Shown here: positions 13,210 through 21,816 of the stretch, piece after piece
How positions within the stretch are numbered: the stretch's first letter is position 1
Layout: each line of letters opens with the position of its first letter
From: Paludibacter sp.
Lineage (GTDB): Bacteria; Bacteroidota; Bacteroidia; Bacteroidales; Paludibacteraceae
Direction: 5' to 3'
DNA: 64,000 nt
NCBI GenBank assembly: GCA_024710005.1
Contig: JANJVQ010000010.1
Span: forward strand, 1-64,000
The notes under the pieces: generated by a model
Databases searched by the model: none
Seen by the model: the letters and a program-made list of their open reading frames with translations, nothing else
Told to the model about the DNA's origin: nothing
Translations under genes and position numbers: made by a program

Positions 13210-16200
13210 TTAATTTTCAGGCTCAGAAGCAGAAAGTAATTCTTTTGGCTCAATTTTATAAGAATTTACCTTTTTCCCTTCATTTCGCATATTGAAATAC
13301 ATGGCTTTGCCGATTTCACTCATCACATGCTTATAGAATTGGTCGTTTTCAAATAACTTGGCGAAGGCATCCATCTGTTCCATGTAGCAGGATTGGGCTA
13401 CTTTATCAAAGATTTGCGGGAATATATTGTTTTCAAACATTTGTTCGTCATTATTCTTGGCTTGCCTTTTCAATTGTTTGCCCTGTTCTTTCAATTTGTC
13501 ATAGATAGTTTCAACGATTACCCGGTCAGCTTCGGTGAATTGCCCCTGGAACATCAGATTTATTTTGTCTATGATATTTTCAAGCAAATCTTTTCTGGTT
13601 TCGGGCTTCTGACCTTCTTTTGGCTTTTCGCCCTTGATGGTTTTATCCCTGGTTGATGGATTTAGTTCAATTGTTCCGCTGAACGTTTCTTTCAATTGAT
13701 TGTATTTCAACGCTATTTTATCGTCCAGATTGACTTTTTCGTGTGGGTTCTTTGGCAAGAACTTATATAGATGCTCGGTAAATACATAAGTTTTGTATAA
13801 TTCTTTATCAAAAGTTCTGACAATTTGTGCCATGTAGGCATAAAAGCGATTGAAGTTTTTCAACAGGAAACGAACCTTGAACTGGTTTTCTTCTGTCAAA
13901 GTTGAATAAGCATTCATGGCAGGTTTCAACGCACTTGACAACTTACCCAAGTCCTTCATTTCCTGTTCTTTCTTTGCGTAAATTTGATATACTTTTTCTT
14001 CGTCATCTGTGTTCCAAAGGTGGAATACGTCCAAATCGTTTTTGAATGTATAGACATAATTCACATCCACAGGGCTATCCAACAGGGTGTCTTCGTAGAA
14101 AGTGGAAAATGATTTTTTTATATCTTCGGCAGTATTTACAAAATCAAATACATAAGTATCCGTTTTCCCTTTGGCGCTTCGGTTCAAGCGGGATAATGTT
14201 TGAACGGCTTTTACGCCTTTCAATTTTTTATCCACAAACATCGTATGTAATAGTGGCTCGTCAAACCCAGTCTGATATTTTTCAGCCACCACCAGCACAT
14301 TAAATAAATCCGAATTGAAATACACCGGCAACTGACTTTCTGAAATCTTCTGGTCGTCGGTGCTATTTAGTTTTGATTCAGTATATTCTACATTTTGAAA
14401 GTTGATAGTGCCCGAAAATGCCACCATTGGTTTTATTTCTTCATACCCATGCTTCTTACAATAATCCTTTATCAGCATGAAGTATTTCACGGCATGAAGG
14501 CGGGAAGGTGAAACTACCATTGCTTTGGCTTTGCCGTCAATCTTCGTCAGGGTAATTTCACGAAATCGTTCCACCATAATTTCAACTTTCTTTTCCATTA
14601 CCGCCACATGACTATCGTGGAAATTACGTATAGCTCTTGTTGCTGGCGGTTCTTCCAATTCTGGATTGTCAGATACCTTACGGGCTATCAGATAGCTATT
14701 TTCAAAAGTGGTATAGAACTTTAATACGTCTATGATAAAATCTTCGTCAATAGCCTGGCGCATGGAATAATGGTGAAAAGCATCATATCCTTCGCCTTTG
14801 GGCACTCCAAATGTTTGAAGGGTCTTTGGTTTGGGGGTGGCGGTAAAGGCGTAAAATGACAGATTTTTATGCTGACCCTGTGTCAGCAGGGTTTCGGTCA
14901 TCAAATCCATTTCGTCTTTTACGGCTTCTTCTGCCTTTTCTTCTATTTCGGCAAATTCTTTCAACGCCTCATCGGTATCGGCTAACGCTGCTTTTAATTT
15001 ATCTGAACTTTTACCACTTTGCGACGAATGGGCTTCATCCACAATAATAGCGAAGTTTTTGCCCGATTTGGCATCCAATTCTTTATAGATAATCGGGAAG
15101 CGGTGAAGCGTGGTGATAATGATTTTTTTGCCATCGTTAATGGCATCTTTCAGTTTGGTAGAATTATCCTTGTCGGTAATTGTTTCAATTTGCCCTTCTA
15201 TGTGTTCAAAGGATAGTATGGTTTCCTGTAATTGGCGGTTCAGCACACGTCTGTCGGTAATAACAAATACGGTTTGGAAAATGTCCTTGTCTTTTTCATC
15301 ATGTAGGGAAGCCAACCGATAGCTAATCCACGCAATGGAATTGGATTTTCCACTTCCTGCCGAATGTTGAAGCAGGTAATTATGCCCTGAACCATTTTTC
15401 CTGGTTTCGGCAACTAATTTTTCTACTACGTCTAATTGGTGATAGCGTGGAAAAATAATCTTTGTGTCGGTTTTAGTGGTCTTCTTGCCACCTACCAACA
15501 TCAGTTGCTCCGTGGTTTGCTTGGAAATGTAGCGTTGAAGGATAGACAGCAACATATCCGCTTGTAGCACATATTCCCACAGGTAAGAAGTAGCATAGCC
15601 ATTCGGATTTTCTGGATTACCGCCATCGCCAATATTGCCTGCTCCGTTGGAACCCTGATTGAAAGGCAGGAAGAATGTTTTATCGCCCCGCAGCTCGGTG
15701 GTCATTGCTACTTCATACAAATCCACGGCAAAATAAGCCAGGATACGGCTGTTGAAATTGAAAATCAATTCCTTGGGGTTGCGGTCGTACATGAATTGCT
15801 TTTTGGCATTTTCTACCGATTGACTGGTTATCTGATTTTTCAGTTCAAGGGCAACCACAGGAATACCATTCAGCGACAGTACAATATCAATGGTGTTATG
15901 ATTATCAGCCGAATAAGCAAACTGACGGGTACAGCTTAGTATATTGGCATTATAGCGCTCCACCAAATCGGGATTAAGGCTGGACGATGGCGCAAAGTAG
16001 CAGAAACGAATAGGTACGCCCCGGTCTTTAATGCCATTTCTTAATACATGTATTAAGCCATAGCGGGAAACATCAGCTTGAAAAACTTTGTAAAGTTGCT
16101 TTTCTGCCCCATCCCCATAGTTATTCACAAAGCGCTGCCAAACTTTGGGCTGGGTATTCAGGATAAACGTCATCAACACAGCCATATCAATCGCACGGCT

Positions 16201-16299
16201 TTTATCATAAGTTGCCTGATTGCCTTTGACGTATCCTCCTGCTTGGGATAAGAAGAAATCTTCTATACTATCTTCAAAGTTCTTTTCTTTTGTTTCCAT
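13210..16299 (-). CDS. hsdR: Type I restriction enzyme, R subunit
   Basis: 1029 aa. The N-terminal nuclease region has TIDIVLSLNGIPVVALELKN, giving the D...ExK catalytic set. SF2 translocase motifs follow: Walker A HSAGSGKSNSIAW, DEAH box VDEAHSSQSGKS, motif III FYAFTATPKPKTLQ, and QTLSRLNRSAKGK (motif VI). The C-terminal 250 residues are helical and probably bind the methylase core. All catalytic motifs look intact. It is transcribed after hsdM, hsdS and a membrane-protein gene, 43 bp after the latter. Confidence 0.95.
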   Translation of the reverse strand: METKEKNFEDSIEDFFLSQAGGYVKGNQATYDKSRAIDMAVLMTFILNTQPKVWQRFVNNYGDGAEKQLYKVFQADVSRYGLIHVLRNGIKDRGVPIRFCYFAPSSSLNPDLVERYNANILSCTRQFAYSADNHNTIDIVLSLNGIPVVALELKNQITSQSVENAKKQFMYDRNPKELIFNFNSRILAYFAVDLYEVAMTTELRGDKTFFLPFNQGSNGAGNIGDGGNPENPNGYATSYLWEYVLQADMLLSILQRYISKQTTEQLMLVGGKKTTKTDTKIIFPRYHQLDVVEKLVAETRKNGSGHNYLLQHSAGSGKSNSIAWISYRLASLHDEKDKDIFQTVFVITDRRVLNRQLQETILSFEHIEGQIETITDKDNSTKLKDAINDGKKIIITTLHRFPIIYKELDAKSGKNFAIIVDEAHSSQSGKSSDKLKAALADTDEALKEFAEIEEKAEEAVKDEMDLMTETLLTQGQHKNLSFYAFTATPKPKTLQTFGVPKGEGYDAFHHYSMRQAIDEDFIIDVLKFYTTFENSYLIARKVSDNPELEEPPATRAIRNFHDSHVAVMEKKVEIMVERFREITLTKIDGKAKAMVVSPSRLHAVKYFMLIKDYCKKHGYEEIKPMVAFSGTINFQNVEYTESKLNSTDDQKISESQLPVYFNSDLFNVLVVAEKYQTGFDEPLLHTMFVDKKLKGVKAVQTLSRLNRSAKGKTDTYVFDFVNTAEDIKKSFSTFYEDTLLDSPVDVNYVYTFKNDLDVFHLWNTDDEEKVYQIYAKKEQEMKDLGKLSSALKPAMNAYSTLTEENQFKVRFLLKNFNRFYAYMAQIVRTFDKELYKTYVFTEHLYKFLPKNPHEKVNLDDKIALKYNQLKETFSGTIELNPSTRDKTIKGEKPKEGQKPETRKDLLENIIDKINLMFQGQFTEADRVIVETIYDKLKEQGKQLKRQAKNNDEQMFENNIFPQIFDKVAQSCYMEQMDAFAKLFENDQFYKHVMSEIGKAMYFNMRNEGKKVNSYKIEPKELLSASEPEN

Positions 16300-16341: not shown

Positions 16342-16914
16342 TTACTCACAATAGGTGTAATATTTAGTTGGCACAGACAACATTTTAGCTGTCTTCTTTT
16401 TCATGTAATTATTGAAATCTAAATAGAAATCAACTTGATAATCTTGTGTTTTCTTTAATTCTTCCTCCAAATAACTTGTCCATTTGTAGATAACCTCCAT
16501 GATTTGACCATATTCATACCAAATGATTTTTTCTTCAAGTTTAATTAAGGTAGGACTAATTAAATTAAACAATTCAATCATGTTGTGAATATCACCATTT
16601 CCACATCCACCTTCTGAAAACATAGTTTCAATTGTATCAATTCTACCATCTGGAAATCTAAACTCATTATATTTAACCCCACTTAATTCGTTGTTAGCGT
16701 GAAATAATTCAATAAATGTTTCGATTTGATTTTCTGTAATATGTCTTCGTATAAAATCCAAGGTTTTGTATGTATTGTCTATTTGTCTTTGTTTTGTAGC
16801 GTTGATATAAGTTCTAATTGTTATAAAAGCACCAATAATAGCAATAGTAAGAAGCAGCCAATTCCTTATCTCAGCCATGTTAAATGTTTCACTAAAAACC
16901 AAAACTTCTTTCAT
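16342..16914 (-). CDS. Membrane-anchored protein between hsdS and hsdR (DUF4760-like)
   Basis: 190 aa. One N-terminal transmembrane helix (WLLLTIAIIGAFITIRTYI, about residues 19-37) precedes a helical cytoplasmic domain that begins QRQIDNTYKTLDFIRRHITE and continues with long amphipathic helices. The architecture resembles DUF4760 proteins; the family assignment is tentative. Its start overlaps the hsdS stop by 4 bp (ATGA), so it is translationally coupled to the specificity subunit. It is not a standard component of type I RM. A membrane-linked accessory or back-up effector role is an inference from position. Confidence 0.7.
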   Translation of the reverse strand: MKEVLVFSETFNMAEIRNWLLLTIAIIGAFITIRTYINATKQRQIDNTYKTLDFIRRHITENQIETFIELFHANNELSGVKYNEFRFPDGRIDTIETMFSEGGCGNGDIHNMIELFNLISPTLIKLEEKIIWYEYGQIMEVIYKWTSYLEEELKKTQDYQVDFYLDFNNYMKKKTAKMLSVPTKYYTYCE

Positions 16915-18251
16915 AATTCAACTTGCTTCTTGCCTGTTATATATTCGTAAATCATTGACTTCTTGTATTCCTTCAATTCGTCTATCTTCTGTTGTTTGAT
17001 TGAAATAAGTGTTTCAATTTTTGCGCATTTGTTATCCAAGTAAAAAGCAATAATATTTTGAACCTCAATTGGTGGCACTAAAACTCTTAATCCTCTTAAT
17101 TGTGTTTTGTTAAATTTAGGTTGGGCTGTACTTTGACTCATGCTTTTTATGGAAACACTACCTGCATCAGATAAAAAGTAATAATAATAATACTTGTCGT
17201 TTAAAGTTGTTTTAAACATAATAGAGTTTGGCGCAAGGCTCATTTTGTCATATAATTTTGATACAATATAAACCTCACCCACACCTCCAATATTTGGTAA
17301 TATTATTTCACCACCATTTAGATTTGAATTGCTTAAAAAGTTATAAGCGTGTTCACTTATATATACACGAGAAATATTTCTGTCTTTGTTTGACAAATCT
17401 GTTGTTCGTACAAGCATAGCATAATCTGGTTCATCTAAATATTTAACATTATTGCGTAAGTTTTCAAAGCTACCACTTGCAACAAAATCTGTTATAATTG
17501 AACAAATATTGTTCATTTTCTTTATTTCCCATCCTTCCGGCACTTCCCCAATCCATTCAATCCCACTATCTTTCATCGGCACAGATTTGTCAAGCCCTTT
17601 ACACACGGCTTCGGTGATAACCGATTGCTTGTAGGCTTTCAGTTCGTCAATCATATGCTGCTGTAAGGTAATCAGTTGGTCTATGTCGGCACATTTTTCG
17701 TCAAGGAAATTGGCGATTTGCTGTTGTAATTGAAATGGGGGTAAAATGTGTGTAAAATTATAAAATTGTTCCTGATACAAATGCTGTATGGTACTTCCAC
17801 CTGTTTGATTTGAATAATACCAATTCCAAAACACATCTGACATCAAAACATAAAATATATATTTTGAATAGTATTTTATTTGTTTTGTATTTCTTATTAA
17901 AAGGACACCACTATTTAATGAAACTTCATTTGGACAATTTATAGCAACAGCAACTTTACCTATTGTGCCATCTTTTGTAATCAACAAGTCATTTTCTTTA
18001 ATATGGATTTCAGGTGCTTCATCGAATCTTTCTTTGCTAATACGAACACATTTTTCCCATGAAATAAACCCATTCTGAAAATCAGTACCTGTAATTAAAT
18101 ATGCCCCTTCGTCTAAATATTCCGAAGATTTAAGTCCTTGCCAACCAATTCTTCCTTTCAGAAGCGAAGTGTTTTTAATCCTAACGACTTGCCAATCATG
18201 TGGTATTTTCCCTATCCACTCAATCCCACTATCTTTCATTTCCACTTTCAT
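16911..18251 (-). CDS. hsdS: Type I restriction enzyme, specificity subunit
   Basis: 446 aa with the usual two-fold layout: target-recognition domain 1 (about 10-165), coiled-coil spacer (LQQQIANFLDEKCADIDQL, about 178 onward), target-recognition domain 2 (about 226-400), and a second coiled coil ending at the C-terminus. Each half begins with nearly the same peptide (MKDSGIEWIGKIPHDW and MKDSGIEWIGEVPEGW), encoded by 26-bp direct repeats with one mismatch. It starts 1 bp after the hsdM stop and overlaps the next gene by 4 bp. The recognition sequence cannot be predicted from sequence alone. Confidence 0.93.
   Translation of the reverse strand: MKVEMKDSGIEWIGKIPHDWQVVRIKNTSLLKGRIGWQGLKSSEYLDEGAYLITGTDFQNGFISWEKCVRISKERFDEAPEIHIKENDLLITKDGTIGKVAVAINCPNEVSLNSGVLLIRNTKQIKYYSKYIFYVLMSDVFWNWYYSNQTGGSTIQHLYQEQFYNFTHILPPFQLQQQIANFLDEKCADIDQLITLQQHMIDELKAYKQSVITEAVCKGLDKSVPMKDSGIEWIGEVPEGWEIKKMNNICSIITDFVASGSFENLRNNVKYLDEPDYAMLVRTTDLSNKDRNISRVYISEHAYNFLSNSNLNGGEIILPNIGGVGEVYIVSKLYDKMSLAPNSIMFKTTLNDKYYYYYFLSDAGSVSIKSMSQSTAQPKFNKTQLRGLRVLVPPIEVQNIIAFYLDNKCAKIETLISIKQQKIDELKEYKKSMIYEYITGKKQVEL
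17551..17576. repeat. Direct repeat in hsdS, copy 1
   Basis: A 26-bp segment encoding the start of the second half of HsdS. It matches 18214-18239 with one mismatch (T/C). The pair flanks the first target-recognition domain and could serve as a crossover point for domain exchange. Confidence 0.75.
18214..18239. repeat. Direct repeat in hsdS, copy 2
   Basis: Second copy of the 26-bp repeat, at the 5' end of the gene (minus strand), 25 of 26 bases identical to 17551-17576. Confidence 0.75.
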
Positions 18252-18252
18252 T

Positions 18253-20016
18253 TCACCCCAATAGTTTAGCCATTAAATCCAATTCCTGATTTTCCAAATA
18301 TTTAAGCGTAGTATATATTTCGTCGCTCTTGCGTGGGGCAACATATTTGTAAAACTCCCTTGTGAAAGGGATTTCATAACCAATCTTTGTTTTCTTTTCG
18401 TCAATCCAGGCATCCGGCGCAAATGGCAAAACATTGGCTTTCATATATTCCTGAATGTCTTCTTTGAAAGGAATGCTTTCGGTATCACGCAAGGCGCTGT
18501 CGGGTTCGGGCTTGCCTTTTTTCAGTATTGGATTACCTTTTTCATCCAACAAAGGACGTTCCACCACCACCTTGGTATATTTGAAATCTTCGTTGTCCTT
18601 TATTTTGCTTTCCACCACCTTATCACCACTTGTATAGGTGTTGTCGGTATAATTAGTATATGCTTCGGTTATCAGTCGGATACTTTCGTCGTCCAATTCA
18701 TTACGTTTGTTGCCAAGTGCTTTACGGCGTTTTACCGAACATTTGCTGGCATCTATCAGCTGAACTTTTCCTGTTCGTTCAACGGCTTTGTCTTTGGTTA
18801 TCACCCATATATATGTGGCAATTCCGGTGTTATAAAACAAATCGTTGGGTAATTGAATTATGGCTTCCAACCAATCGTTTTCCAACAGATAACCACGAAT
18901 GTTGCTCTCGCCACTTCCAGCATCGCCCTTAAATAAAGGCGAACCATTCTGAATAATTGCCATCCGTCCGGTATCTTTCAGTTTTGCAACACCATTCAAT
19001 ACAAACAATTGCTGACTATCGCCAATTGCAGGCAATCCGCAACCAAATCGCCCTGTATCGCCTTGCTTGTGTTCTTTTTCAACGGCAGTTTTTTCATTTT
19101 TCCATTCAATACCAAAGGGTGGATTGGATATAATATAGTCAAACTGATATCCGCTGAACTTATCGTCCGAAAGTGTATTGCCATGCTTCATATTGTCGGC
19201 ATTCTGCCCTTTAATTAGCATATCCGCTTTGGCAATAGCAAAAGTTTGTTCGTTCAGTTCCTGCCCGAAGCAAGTTATGTCGGCATCTGGGTCTATGGTT
19301 AGTAGGCGCTCTGTCAGGCAGTCAAGCATTTGTGAAGTCCCCATCGCCATATCATACATGGTTTTGGTAATGCCTTCTTCTTTCAATTTATCCTTTTCGT
19401 TGGCTACCAATACTTCGGTCATCAGGTAGATTATGTCCCTTGCCGTAAAGTGTGCCCCTGCCTGCTCATCATAACTTTCAGAAAATTTCCTAACCAATTC
19501 TTCAAAGATGTATCCCATATCCACAGCAGAAACAGCATCAACGCCCATATATGCCTTCTTGGTACAGAATTCCTGTATGATGTTAAACAGGATGCCGTGA
19601 TTATCCAGCTTGGTAATTTCCTTATCAAATTCAAACTTCAACAGGATGTCAATCACATTATCACTAAACTTTGATAAGTACGAACGGAAGTTGTCAGCAA
19701 TATTATCAGGGTCGGCAAGCAGTTTTTCAAGGTCAAAAGGGGATGTATTATAAAAATCATAGCCAGAAGCAGAATTAAGAAATCCTTTTTTTACTACTAA
19801 CCCTCTTTCATCCAAAGTTTTATTTATAGATAATACTTTTTCTTTTGTTGGGGCAAGCACATCGTTGAAGCGTTTAATCACGCACATAGGTAATACCACG
19901 TTGCCGTATTCGTGTGGCTTATAAACACCAACAATTTTATCGGCTATTGCCCAGATAAGGTTTGCTTTTTCCTGAATGTTTATGGTAGTTTGCTTTTGAA
20001 GTTCGTCAGAAGACAT
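18253..20016 (-). CDS. hsdM: Type I restriction enzyme, M subunit (N6-adenine methyltransferase)
   Basis: 587 aa. The N-terminal helical HsdM_N domain is followed by a gamma-class N6-adenine methyltransferase: SAM-binding motif I in the variant form MYDMAMGTSQMLDCL, an acidic loop (CFGQELNEQTFAIAKADMLI), and catalytic motif IV YIISNPPFG with the essential N-P-P-F. About 150 C-terminal residues provide the S-subunit interface. It is the first gene of the RM operon, 165 bp downstream of the preceding methyltransferase-like gene, from which a hairpin terminator separates it. HsdM's intact NPPF contrasts with that neighbour. Confidence 0.94.
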   Translation of the reverse strand: MSSDELQKQTTINIQEKANLIWAIADKIVGVYKPHEYGNVVLPMCVIKRFNDVLAPTKEKVLSINKTLDERGLVVKKGFLNSASGYDFYNTSPFDLEKLLADPDNIADNFRSYLSKFSDNVIDILLKFEFDKEITKLDNHGILFNIIQEFCTKKAYMGVDAVSAVDMGYIFEELVRKFSESYDEQAGAHFTARDIIYLMTEVLVANEKDKLKEEGITKTMYDMAMGTSQMLDCLTERLLTIDPDADITCFGQELNEQTFAIAKADMLIKGQNADNMKHGNTLSDDKFSGYQFDYIISNPPFGIEWKNEKTAVEKEHKQGDTGRFGCGLPAIGDSQQLFVLNGVAKLKDTGRMAIIQNGSPLFKGDAGSGESNIRGYLLENDWLEAIIQLPNDLFYNTGIATYIWVITKDKAVERTGKVQLIDASKCSVKRRKALGNKRNELDDESIRLITEAYTNYTDNTYTSGDKVVESKIKDNEDFKYTKVVVERPLLDEKGNPILKKGKPEPDSALRDTESIPFKEDIQEYMKANVLPFAPDAWIDEKKTKIGYEIPFTREFYKYVAPRKSDEIYTTLKYLENQELDLMAKLLG

Positions 20017-20093
20017 ATTAAGTTAATTTTACATAGATTTAATAATCACAAAAATAGGAAAAAACATCGGGAATATTCACTTTTATTAAAAAA

Positions 20094-20118
20094 ACCCTGA
20101 CGTTAAATGGGTCAGGGT
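20094..20118 (-). terminator. Rho-independent terminator
   Basis: Stem ACCCTGAC/GTCAGGGT (20094-20101 and 20111-20118) with a 9-nt loop, followed on the minus strand by a U-rich run (complement of 20087-20093). It lies 64 bp past the stop of the methyltransferase-like gene and upstream of hsdM, so hsdM should have its own promoter. Confidence 0.75.
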
Positions 20119-20181: not shown

Positions 20182-21816
20182 TTACGGTTTAAGGAATTCA
20201 AAGGCTTTAAATAGTTCGTTGTCGGCTGGTTGTTTTAGTTCTGCTTCCTTGTCGAAATGATATGAAATCCAACGAACGTCTTTACTTTCAATGCTTGTAT
20301 AAAAGTAAATTGCGTCAGACACTTCCACGAATTTTATAAATGGCAATAATTCCAAAGGTTTAGTCTGCTCTGAATTGCACAAATATAACTTTTTTCTGTC
20401 GAGAAGAATTAGGCTTTTTATTGTTACTTCATTGAACGGGGTTCTTGCTCCGATTAATTCCTTAGTGATTGACTTATAGCTTTTCGGTTGTTTCCATAAA
20501 TTACGTTTAAGTTCATCAAGTCTAAATGTGAATTGTTGAATTTTACTATCAACTTCAATTATCTCTGCTTGGGTAGATAAGTCAGGTAAGAAGAAAACAC
20601 ACCTTGAAAGTTGAGATTTTGAAATTTGAGGTATAACTGCACCAACTTCTAAGCTCTCTCTTAATTTTTTACCAACTGGCGTATTGAAATAATTCGCTAC
20701 ATAAATCGCATTGGCTTTTGTTTCGTCAAGTTGAATTTGGTAGTAATTTTTTGGCTTGATTTTCAGTTCTGATAAACTTGCAACAACAGGACTGTTTCCA
20801 ACTCTGGGCAAATAAATGGAATTTGCTAAATGCTCAACTTCATCAGCATTCTTGGCTTTAAGTGTATTTATAGATTTAGAAATGTCAGTTAAGAAAATTG
20901 GCGGGTAGCTAATTCTCTTAACGAGATCCTGCATTTCTTTTTCAGATTTAAGTGCGTTGAAAGATTTGAACTCCATATATTCAACAAAACAGCCAAGTTG
21001 AATAGCTTTACCTTCTTTTTGGTTTTTGAAGTTTTGGAGTATTGTTTTATTCGTTGTATCGTCTTGTGAAATTTCAGCAACAAATGTTTTCTCTTTAATC
21101 TGTTTAGAGATAAGAATAAGATTTGACGTGATATTGGTCATTGGTGCAAAAGCACCAGAAGGAATAGAAAAAACGGCATCAACAAAAAGACCTTGCTTGT
21201 TCAATGCTTCTTTTCCTTGGTTGTCCATCAAAAATGAATTAGAAACAAGAAAGATTAATTTTCCATCTTGTGCTAAATGTCCACCGCATTTTAAAAGTAA
21301 TGTTGTTGCAAAATCAAAAGGACTTTTCTCTCCGCTTATGTATTGAGTTCGCATTCCGAAAGGAGGAAAGGAAAGAACTATATCAAACTTTTGTGTTGAT
21401 TTTGAAAGTTCATTTAGCGTGTTACCAAGTTTTATATTTTGACTTTTTTCCTTAAATAAGGATTTAATGGTTTCAAACTCTGTTTGGTTTATGCAAGTTC
21501 CAAAAATGTCAACAGCTTGAATATAAAAGCTTGGAGAAGATAAAGTCACCCAGGGGTCAAGGAGATATTTTTTATTTTCGGTTTTTATAAGTTCTTCAAT
21601 GAATTTGAAAACATAAGTCGGTGCGGTATTTGAATGAGTGTTTGTGAGCTTAGAAAGTAATTCACTATCTTGAAATATACTTTCAAGTCTTTCTAAACCC
21701 AAAGTTGTTCCGATAAGTTCTAATAATCTGGTGTCACGAAGTCCTGAAAAATTTTGGTCTGTCCGAAGTCGGTCAAGGTTACTCCAAATTTTATTTTTTA
21801 TGTCTATTTGTTCCAT
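20182..21816 (-). CDS. Degenerate N6-methyltransferase fused to an HsdS-like recognition domain
   Basis: 544 aa. Residues 1-300 follow the N6_Mtase (HsdM) layout. However, motif I reads LLDPWVTLSSPSF instead of a glycine-rich loop, and motif IV reads DIVLSFPPFG where active enzymes have xxxSNPPFG, so the catalytic Asn is Phe. After about residue 335 comes an HsdS-type target-recognition half: a region around YYQIQLDETKANAIYVANYF, then GAVIPQISKSQLSRCVFFLP and a coiled coil (QAEIIEVDSKIQQFTFRLDE). The last 100 residues are unassigned. It is monocistronic, with its own terminator, upstream of the RM operon in the same direction. Methylation by this protein is unlikely; DNA recognition without catalysis is my inference. 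Confidence 0.75.
   Translation of the reverse strand: MEQIDIKNKIWSNLDRLRTDQNFSGLRDTRLLELIGTTLGLERLESIFQDSELLSKLTNTHSNTAPTYVFKFIEELIKTENKKYLLDPWVTLSSPSFYIQAVDIFGTCINQTEFETIKSLFKEKSQNIKLGNTLNELSKSTQKFDIVLSFPPFGMRTQYISGEKSPFDFATTLLLKCGGHLAQDGKLIFLVSNSFLMDNQGKEALNKQGLFVDAVFSIPSGAFAPMTNITSNLILISKQIKEKTFVAEISQDDTTNKTILQNFKNQKEGKAIQLGCFVEYMEFKSFNALKSEKEMQDLVKRISYPPIFLTDISKSINTLKAKNADEVEHLANSIYLPRVGNSPVVASLSELKIKPKNYYQIQLDETKANAIYVANYFNTPVGKKLRESLEVGAVIPQISKSQLSRCVFFLPDLSTQAEIIEVDSKIQQFTFRLDELKRNLWKQPKSYKSITKELIGARTPFNEVTIKSLILLDRKKLYLCNSEQTKPLELLPFIKFVEVSDAIYFYTSIESKDVRWISYHFDKEAELKQPADNELFKAFEFLKP

Follow-up and report, generated by a model that had tools for sequence, protein, structure and literature searches.

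Among described systems, PrrC with EcoprrI and DndH come closest to the gene considered here, a 544-codon open reading frame (ORF) on the minus strand of a Paludibacter sp. contig (JANJVQ010000010.1), at positions 20182-21816 of the 64,000-nucleotide stretch analysed, hereafter the window. PrrC is a HEPN anticodon nuclease silenced by the type IC restriction-modification (R-M) enzyme EcoprrI, and exemplifies a HEPN RNase tied to type I R-M as a second-line suicide device (PMC3710099, PMC3874165). PrrC, however, is a subunit in its own right and, like RloC, has an ABC-type ATPase at its N-terminus, whereas the family of the window gene has its HEPN-like domain in one chain with a dead methylase and a target-recognition domain (TRD), and Pfam scans of P0002 and P0003 returned no ATPase family. 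DndH, of the DndFGH system, is an inactive adenine methyltransferase with TRDs plus a restriction endonuclease (REase) and a HerA/FtsK ATPase, and is to our knowledge the nearest precedent of an eroded methylase used as a reader. In both cases a methyltransferase fold, in which the S-adenosylmethionine (SAM) loop and the motif [SDN]PP[FYW] are eroded, lies beside a nuclease (PMC10853773). DndH works with a DNase and a translocase, whereas the effector here is predicted to be of RNase type with no ATPase, neither REase nor HerA/FtsK ATPase having been found in Pfam scans of P0001, P0002 and P0003; moreover, DndH has one TRD N-terminal to the methylase and one nested in it, while here a single TRD follows the methylase.

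HEPN domains joined to R-M components are on record in the census of Anantharaman et al. (2013), in which the reported fusion partners are nucleases, helicases and further ATPases, with HEPN domains joined "not to the methylases" (PMC3710099). The present family resembles those fusions in that a HEPN-like module is joined to an R-M component, one member (L057) being fused to HsdR, and differs in that the partner is a methylase, though a catalytically dead one. It breaks the letter of the census rule and may explain its spirit, since the partner methylase lacks the catalytic asparagine. Methylase-TRD fusions of the type IIG kind are also known. The order of a gamma-class methylase followed by a TRD recalls the M and S subunits of type I enzymes, here in one chain; unlike in those subunits, the catalytic motifs are lost, no REase was found, there is one TRD, and an extra effector-like domain is present. 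HEPN and Schlafen RNases, stand-alone or fused to other domains, are listed as backup effectors of BREX-like systems (PMC12839542), and no description of either fused to a dead N6-methylase was found in the open-licence literature searched.

On present evidence, we consider it rather likely that the window gene belongs, in a disarmed form, to a family of abortive-infection proteins that sense DNA. This reading starts from four features apparent in the sequences, namely the architecture, a conserved loss of motifs, a HEPN-type motif and a deletion. The gene opens with ATG and has no internal stops. Residues 124-257 (21046-21447; all features of the gene lie on the minus strand) form a methylase-like half recognised by the PADLOC model MTase_I (E 3e-9), and against Pfam the protein has methylase matches only (MTS and Eco57I), both under the curated cut-offs. 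An initial annotation had described a full-length pseudo-enzyme with destroyed catalytic and SAM motifs, and for the motifs the sequence bears it out. The site expected for the SAM loop, residues 85-97 (21526-21564), reads LLDPWVTLSSPSF, with DPWVTLSSP in place of a motif I of the DPxxGxG type, and the three readable close relatives (L001, L002 and L003) are similarly eroded. Motif IV, defined as NPP[FYW] for gamma-class (HsdM-type) N6-methyltransferases (PMC3874165), is FPPF at residues 150-153 (21358-21369, context SFPPFG), while NPPF is found, as annotated, in the neighbouring HsdM. The same relatives have FPPF (L001, L003) or SPPF (L002) and none has an intact NPPF; a recent point mutant is ruled out, as FPPF is common to L001 and L003. 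The TRD had rightly been called preserved: residues 322-452 (20461-20853) match the PADLOC model Specificity_I (E 6.6e-7). No Pfam Methylase_S match was reported for the window protein, and one specificity-like stretch per model was counted in the window and L001 proteins, against the two TRDs of an HsdS. Residues 455-544 (20185-20454) form a C-terminal domain, the companion of the HEPN-like segment in relatives, 90% identical to residues 660-753 of P0002. An AlphaFold model of the whole protein (three rows) was unusable (pLDDT 33.6), and the NCBIfam equivalog for MAD5 of the MADS system gave 15.7 bits against a cut-off of 400.

Close relatives were sought with a pattern-seeded scan of a species-genome collection, which reaches close relatives only and gave four loci: L001 (Chryseobacterium sp. 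SC28, 78% identity to the window protein, intact, 753 aa), L002 (a Limnothrix metagenome-assembled genome, MAG, 77% identity, with an in-frame stop), L003 (Perlabentimonas gracilis, 67% identity, intact, 751 aa, its ORF possibly opening 21 codons earlier) and L004 (a fragment at a contig end, 95% over the last 94 residues). The erosion of the motifs is thus common to relatives 67-78% identical. Aligned to L001 and L003, the window protein is complete on either side of a single gap, 209 residues long against L001, which falls between KSI and KELIGARTP; the junction, AAGGAATTA (K452-E453-L454), lies at 20455-20463 (-), where the relatives have 209 extra codons. In the relatives both borders of the stretch read AARGAAYTA, two 9-nt repeats differing at one or two bases, as expected for a 627-bp in-frame loss by deletion between short direct repeats. 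Because distant relatives also hold the segment, its absence is the derived state, and it was not found elsewhere in the window genome. The gap rules out an ordinary full-length pseudo-enzyme and contradicts the annotated full length, the window copy being 209 codons short. The lost segment is very probably a HEPN RNase domain, on the evidence set out below, and the window protein itself therefore contains none.

Integrity could be assessed in seven copies, three of which are intact: L001, L003 and a Streptomyces copy present as three identical records. The four damaged ones are the window copy with its deleted segment, L002 with its in-frame stop, G269, of which about 135 residues are left, with a stop, and a Gordonia copy with an in-frame stop between P0005 and P0006. 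That four of seven copies carry lesions, the window strain having lost the predicted effector, suggests a protein that may be costly to carry, and does not sit well with the annotated view that this is not simple decay. A comparison of the two intact copies L001 and L003 gives dN/dS values of 0.178 for the dead methylase, 0.128 for the TRD, 0.033 for the HEPN segment and 0.030 for the C-terminal domain (rough ratios, dS being large and above 1 for many comparisons); from the low HEPN value, the lost segment is, with the C-terminal domain, among the most conserved parts of intact relatives. The window copy and L002 show the highest ratios of six pairs in the methylase (0.298) and TRD (0.284), with 0.079 in the C-terminal part, which is consistent with relaxed constraint and also with closeness, these being the closest pair and both damaged. 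Dating the deletion by dN/dS gave no date, as dS exceeded 1 for many comparisons. On balance, we favour with fair confidence the view that the window gene is the disarmed remnant of a costly suicide gene, heading for decay.

Weighing against the reading of the family as a whole, close loci beyond the window number only five, with just two of them intact. Two further observations favour continued use of the window copy: its 544 codons carry no further lesion, and its private changes comprise 14 synonymous and 10 non-synonymous ones, so that the copy may still be used. Ten non-synonymous changes per 14 synonymous are, as a rule of thumb, fewer than drift alone should give, and for that reason the remainder of the gene has probably not long been free to drift. 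The window copy might then have been retained as a working DNA-binding protein that shields its host as a decoy, by blocking sites or as a dominant-negative partner, for instance through inactive mixed dimers with an intact homologue entering the cell or through modulation of the neighbouring type I enzyme. This agrees with the ratio of private changes, with the in-frame loss of the effector-like segment alone while TRD and C-terminal domain are retained, with the terminator-like hairpin behind the gene, and with its position adjoining, and co-oriented with, hsdMSR. Yet one third of deletions are in frame by chance, the other three damaged copies (L002, G269, Gordonia) form an ordinary pattern of loss, the dN/dS of the window copy against L002 is the highest in methylase and TRD, albeit for the closest pair, and the branch on which the private changes fell may mostly predate the deletion. 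We therefore regard a kept function as unlikely. Were there one, a decoy role is possible, and site occupancy is, by analogy with DndH, the best surviving idea; the authors of the DndH study propose that it blocks invader methylases in this way (PMC10853773).

The assignment of the missing segment to HEPN was approached through alignments of the segment with its C-terminal domain, built first from nine and later from eleven diverged sequences. R and N do not vary across the 11 rows, and an H, located by eye, occurs in each with four to five residues between R and H; intact relatives and module rows thus show the HEPN pattern Rx4-6H with a polar residue after R. An AlphaFold model of the deleted segment (three rows) is of medium confidence (pLDDT 61.4, pTM 0.61) and helical to its end; in it, R147-N148 ends one helix and H153 opens the loop to the last helix, which compares with the HEPN motif at the end of helix 3 and the start of the loop to helix 4 (PMC3710099). 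Two stand-alone module proteins, L068 and L067, match Pfam HEPN_RiboL-PSP with E 4.8e-5 and 0.016, both below the curated cut-off, which L093 exceeds (71.5 bits). Aligned to an 18-sequence module profile, L093 places RN..H in register and scores 25.6, where none of 30 shuffles exceeded 14.5, although the probability by hhalign's own estimate is just 9.5%, and L096, a HEPN-type protein below the cut-off, scored marginally, better than 29 of 30 shuffles. A second look with VIA-align retrieved HepT (6m6w, Z 5.8; 6m6u, Z 5.7), SO_3166 (5yep, Z 5.6), the HEPN toxin 7ae6 (Z 5.1) and Csm6 (6tug, Z 5.1).

A number of results speak against a HEPN domain. The R-N..H motif is absent from three wider members (L078, L082, L084), no Pfam HEPN match was obtained for any of nine module sequences or nine wider members, and the profile-profile signal was absent in seven of the nine single HEPN-type proteins tested, out of 16 HEPN-type loci. 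Profile searches of the PDB gave three chance-level matches (E 0.49-1.2, one of them Cas13a at E 1.2) and then none, Foldseek found no PDB match to the segment model at E 0.001 or better, and the HEPN chains retrieved by VIA-align are interspersed with unrelated helical bundles that score as high or higher (best Z 8.0). The missing domain could accordingly be another helical effector, or a dimerisation or regulatory bundle, in which RNxxxxH arose by chance, a view which the weak or absent database matches for most members and the three members without the motif would suit. This is improbable in our judgement, given that R-N is invariant across 11 highly diverged sequences, that the modelled motif stands at the position typical of HEPN at the helix 3 end and loop, that L068 and L093 link the module to HEPN_RiboL-PSP, and that it is also fused to HsdR and to NACHT/STAND-type ATPases, partner types of HEPN domains according to PMC3710099.

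It is very improbable, in turn, that the protein keeps methyltransferase activity through an unusual active site tolerating F for N, with or without the extra domain. In some methyltransferases not of the gamma class, motif IV begins with D or S; F cannot form the hydrogen bonds of N. PPF is retained in the window protein and the motif is written [SDN]PP[FYW] in PMC10853773, yet the SAM loop is gone too and the first position of motif IV is free to vary, as expected if unused in catalysis. Least probable is an assembly artefact in which the 627-bp segment was skipped, conceivable in that only one genome per species was available, against which stand repeats that at 9 nt are very short to confuse an assembler, an assembly of 36 contigs with 99.85% completeness and 0.26% contamination, and the lack of an orphan segment elsewhere in the genome.

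If the window gene is indeed a disarmed abortive-infection gene, the full protein would consist of a dead N6-methyltransferase fold, with SAM and catalytic motifs lost, one type-I-like TRD, a HEPN RNase and the C-terminal domain. TRD and dead methylase would bind a DNA site, perhaps judging its adenine methylation, and the HEPN domain would be kept inactive unless foreign or unmodified DNA is present. A single TRD would imply dimerisation on a two-part site; a triggering site would pair two subunits, upon which the HEPN pair would cut RNA and growth would stop. HEPN domains are typically dimeric RNases (PMC13092281), so that DNA-driven pairing could switch the RNase on. An adjacent R-M enzyme, where present, would be the first line and HEPN the second, by analogy with PrrC and further HEPN RNases linked to R-M. 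That the protein binds DNA, cuts RNA, answers to such a trigger and defends the cell is inferred, and the window copy, minus its HEPN-like domain, would at most bind DNA or partner subunits. The initial annotation had envisaged a DNA-reading pseudo-enzyme acting as sensor, site blocker or decoy: its reader part is supported, the motif erosion being conserved and the TRD-like domain kept, while the missing piece suggests that the family acts through a predicted RNase and not just by blocking sites or serving as a decoy.

The module of HEPN-like segment and C-terminal domain recurs in other settings. It is fused to a dead methylase and TRD in three lineages (the window lineage, Streptomyces and Gordonia), in all of which the methylase partner has lost the catalytic N, and by eye to a TRD-like part alone in L058. 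Fusions to NACHT/STAND-type ATPases were found by Pfam in L085 and L090 and, similar by eye, in L081 and L086, while L082 joins the module, its motif lost, to a CHAT domain. Among genomes of the phylum of G595 the module turned up in 4 of 244 (one being the query source), in the window's phylum in 2 of 390 (one match being the C-terminal piece of the window gene itself), among relatives of G596 in 4 of 148 (one being the source) and, with a wider profile, in the class of G594 in 17 of 395 (one being the source). Flanks were read at 11 loci, Schlafen-type included (the window, L001, L002, L003, L045, L046, L057, L061, L062, L063 and L066). A type I R-M gene adjoins or is fused in four of them (the window, L046, L057 and L066), and in the read flanks of the other seven, several of them short or judged by eye, none was recognised, a point against the favoured reading, as the four are a point for it. 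The surroundings of L001, near GmrSD_N and AbiJ_NTD5 proteins, and of L003, near HNH, RhuM and Eco57I-type methylase genes, are defence-like.

Single loci with the module offer further observations. L057 (6228-10364, minus strand) encodes a complete HsdR (T1RH-like_C, SWI2_SNF2, HSDR_N) with the module at its C-terminus and, by eye, an HsdS-like ORF nearby. L065 (1384-3381, minus strand; the same protein as L072) combines the module with a squalene-hopene-cyclase-like domain (Pfam E 2.8e-9), an odd sensor partner. The stand-alone module genes of L067 and L068 lie beside nSTAND1 NTPase genes, with which they likely form a two-gene defence pair.

The window gene stands upstream of a type I R-M operon on the same strand, in the order hsdM (18253-20016), hsdS (16911-18251; Pfam Methylase_S, E 2.4e-27), a 190-aa ORF and hsdR (13210-16299; Pfam HSDR_N, SWI2_SNF2, T1R_D3-like). 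A terminator of its own had been annotated for the window gene, and a terminator-like hairpin with a T-run is indeed found between it and hsdM, at 20087-20118 (-), with an 8-bp stem (20094-20101 with 20111-20118), a 9-nt loop and the T-run on the minus strand; its fold has -12.3 kcal/mol (z -3.43), and 2 of 200 shuffles folded equally well. A terminator consensus scan, whose loop limit of 8 the 9-nt loop exceeds, did not list the hairpin, and a promoter scan was uninformative (7 sites against 8.0 expected). Motif I of the neighbouring HsdM reads DMAMGTSQML against the usual DPACGTGGML. A dead HsdM is nevertheless ruled out by comparison with three plasmid relatives, in all of which NPPF is found, two of them (L109 and L111, about 59% identical) having GTSQM-type loops, and the loop looks like a subfamily trait. 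The 190-aa ORF (16342-16914, minus strand) has a weak match to the two-transmembrane effector of retron Ec48 (E 0.01, 15.4 bits against a cut-off of 65) and is possibly an accessory membrane effector of the operon.

At 33.1%, the G+C content of the window gene is lower than that of hsdM (40.2%) and of the window (38.0%), and 199 other genomes of the same family gave seven short matches of methylase or TRD level, all of them weak (E 2.5e-7 or worse); the low G+C content together with these weak, short matches suggests that the gene arrived horizontally and separately. Searches of viral and phage sequences reported no relatives, plasmid DNA held no near match to the gene, and in a looser plasmid search with P0002 the best 10 of 70 matches comprised, beyond four HEPN-type records, chance-level or methylase-level rows. 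In L002 (7980-10313) a gene of 34% G+C lies within a locus of 50% G+C on a contig labelled as a Limnothrix MAG, which reflects either transfer across phyla or a binning effect. Upstream of the gene in L003 (5252-7143), long near-identical direct repeats are visible by eye as duplicated spurious ORFs.

To place the dead methylase in a wider frame, 39 methylase-like loci besides the window gene's own were surveyed; L016, a truncated relative with no readable ORF, was dropped, 38 ORFs were read, and 10 further matches without a locus, besides the window's own second piece, were left unread. All 31 plain methylase-sized ORFs (348-604 aa, window HsdM included), some possibly cut by locus ends and none scanned for extra domains, keep NPP[FY], whereas the N of motif IV is kept in none of the seven which carry extra C-terminal domains by Pfam. 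Three of these (L017-L019) bear SLFN_AlbA_2 (E 1.6e-15 to 2.8e-21) and four (L007, L020, L029, L041) a HATPase_c stretch (E 0.0022 to 2e-5, under the curated cut-off). Beyond the survey set, motif IV reads EIPY in the Streptomyces plasmid protein, DAPW in Gordonia and FPPI in a Pseudoalteromonas plasmid protein of 783 aa, which combines N6_Mtase (E 3.7e-55) with SLFN_AlbA_2 (E 1e-15) and whose gene lies 46 bp before hsdM-hsdS-Schlafen-hsdR. The first position of motif IV varies freely among members (F, S, I, A, T, L). Better SAM loops are kept in some (Streptomyces, L029, L041), so that SAM binding need not be lost in every one of them.

Two groups in this set deserve mention in their own right. 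The Pseudoalteromonas plasmid operon (L066, 5155-13497) comprises the dead methylase/TRD/Schlafen gene, hsdM, hsdS, a gene for a second Schlafen/HATPase_c_4 protein and hsdR. The methylase/TRD proteins of L007 (40-2547, minus strand), L020, L029 and L041, whose motif IV is TPPF, DLPI or DLPS and whose C-terminal part contains a HATPase-like stretch, constitute a possible DNA-reading, histidine-kinase-like family; a WYL gene lies upstream of L007, and a similar-looking ORF was seen by eye at L020.

Tentatively, and with rather less confidence than we place in the disarmed state of the window gene, the dead N6-methylase with a TRD may be a general scaffold of bacterial immune receptors with exchangeable outputs (HEPN, Schlafen AlbA_2 and GHKL ATPase). 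If so, R-M proteins would repeatedly have lost catalysis, kept sequence reading and gained output domains, DNA sequence or methylation state would directly gate RNA cleavage or signalling, and the window gene would represent one such receptor, disarmed in nature. The main value of the window gene is the intact family to which it points: should the scaffold be a DNA-reading receptor, it would offer a simple model of self/non-self DNA discrimination coupled to abortive infection, with one protein, one DNA site and one RNase output.

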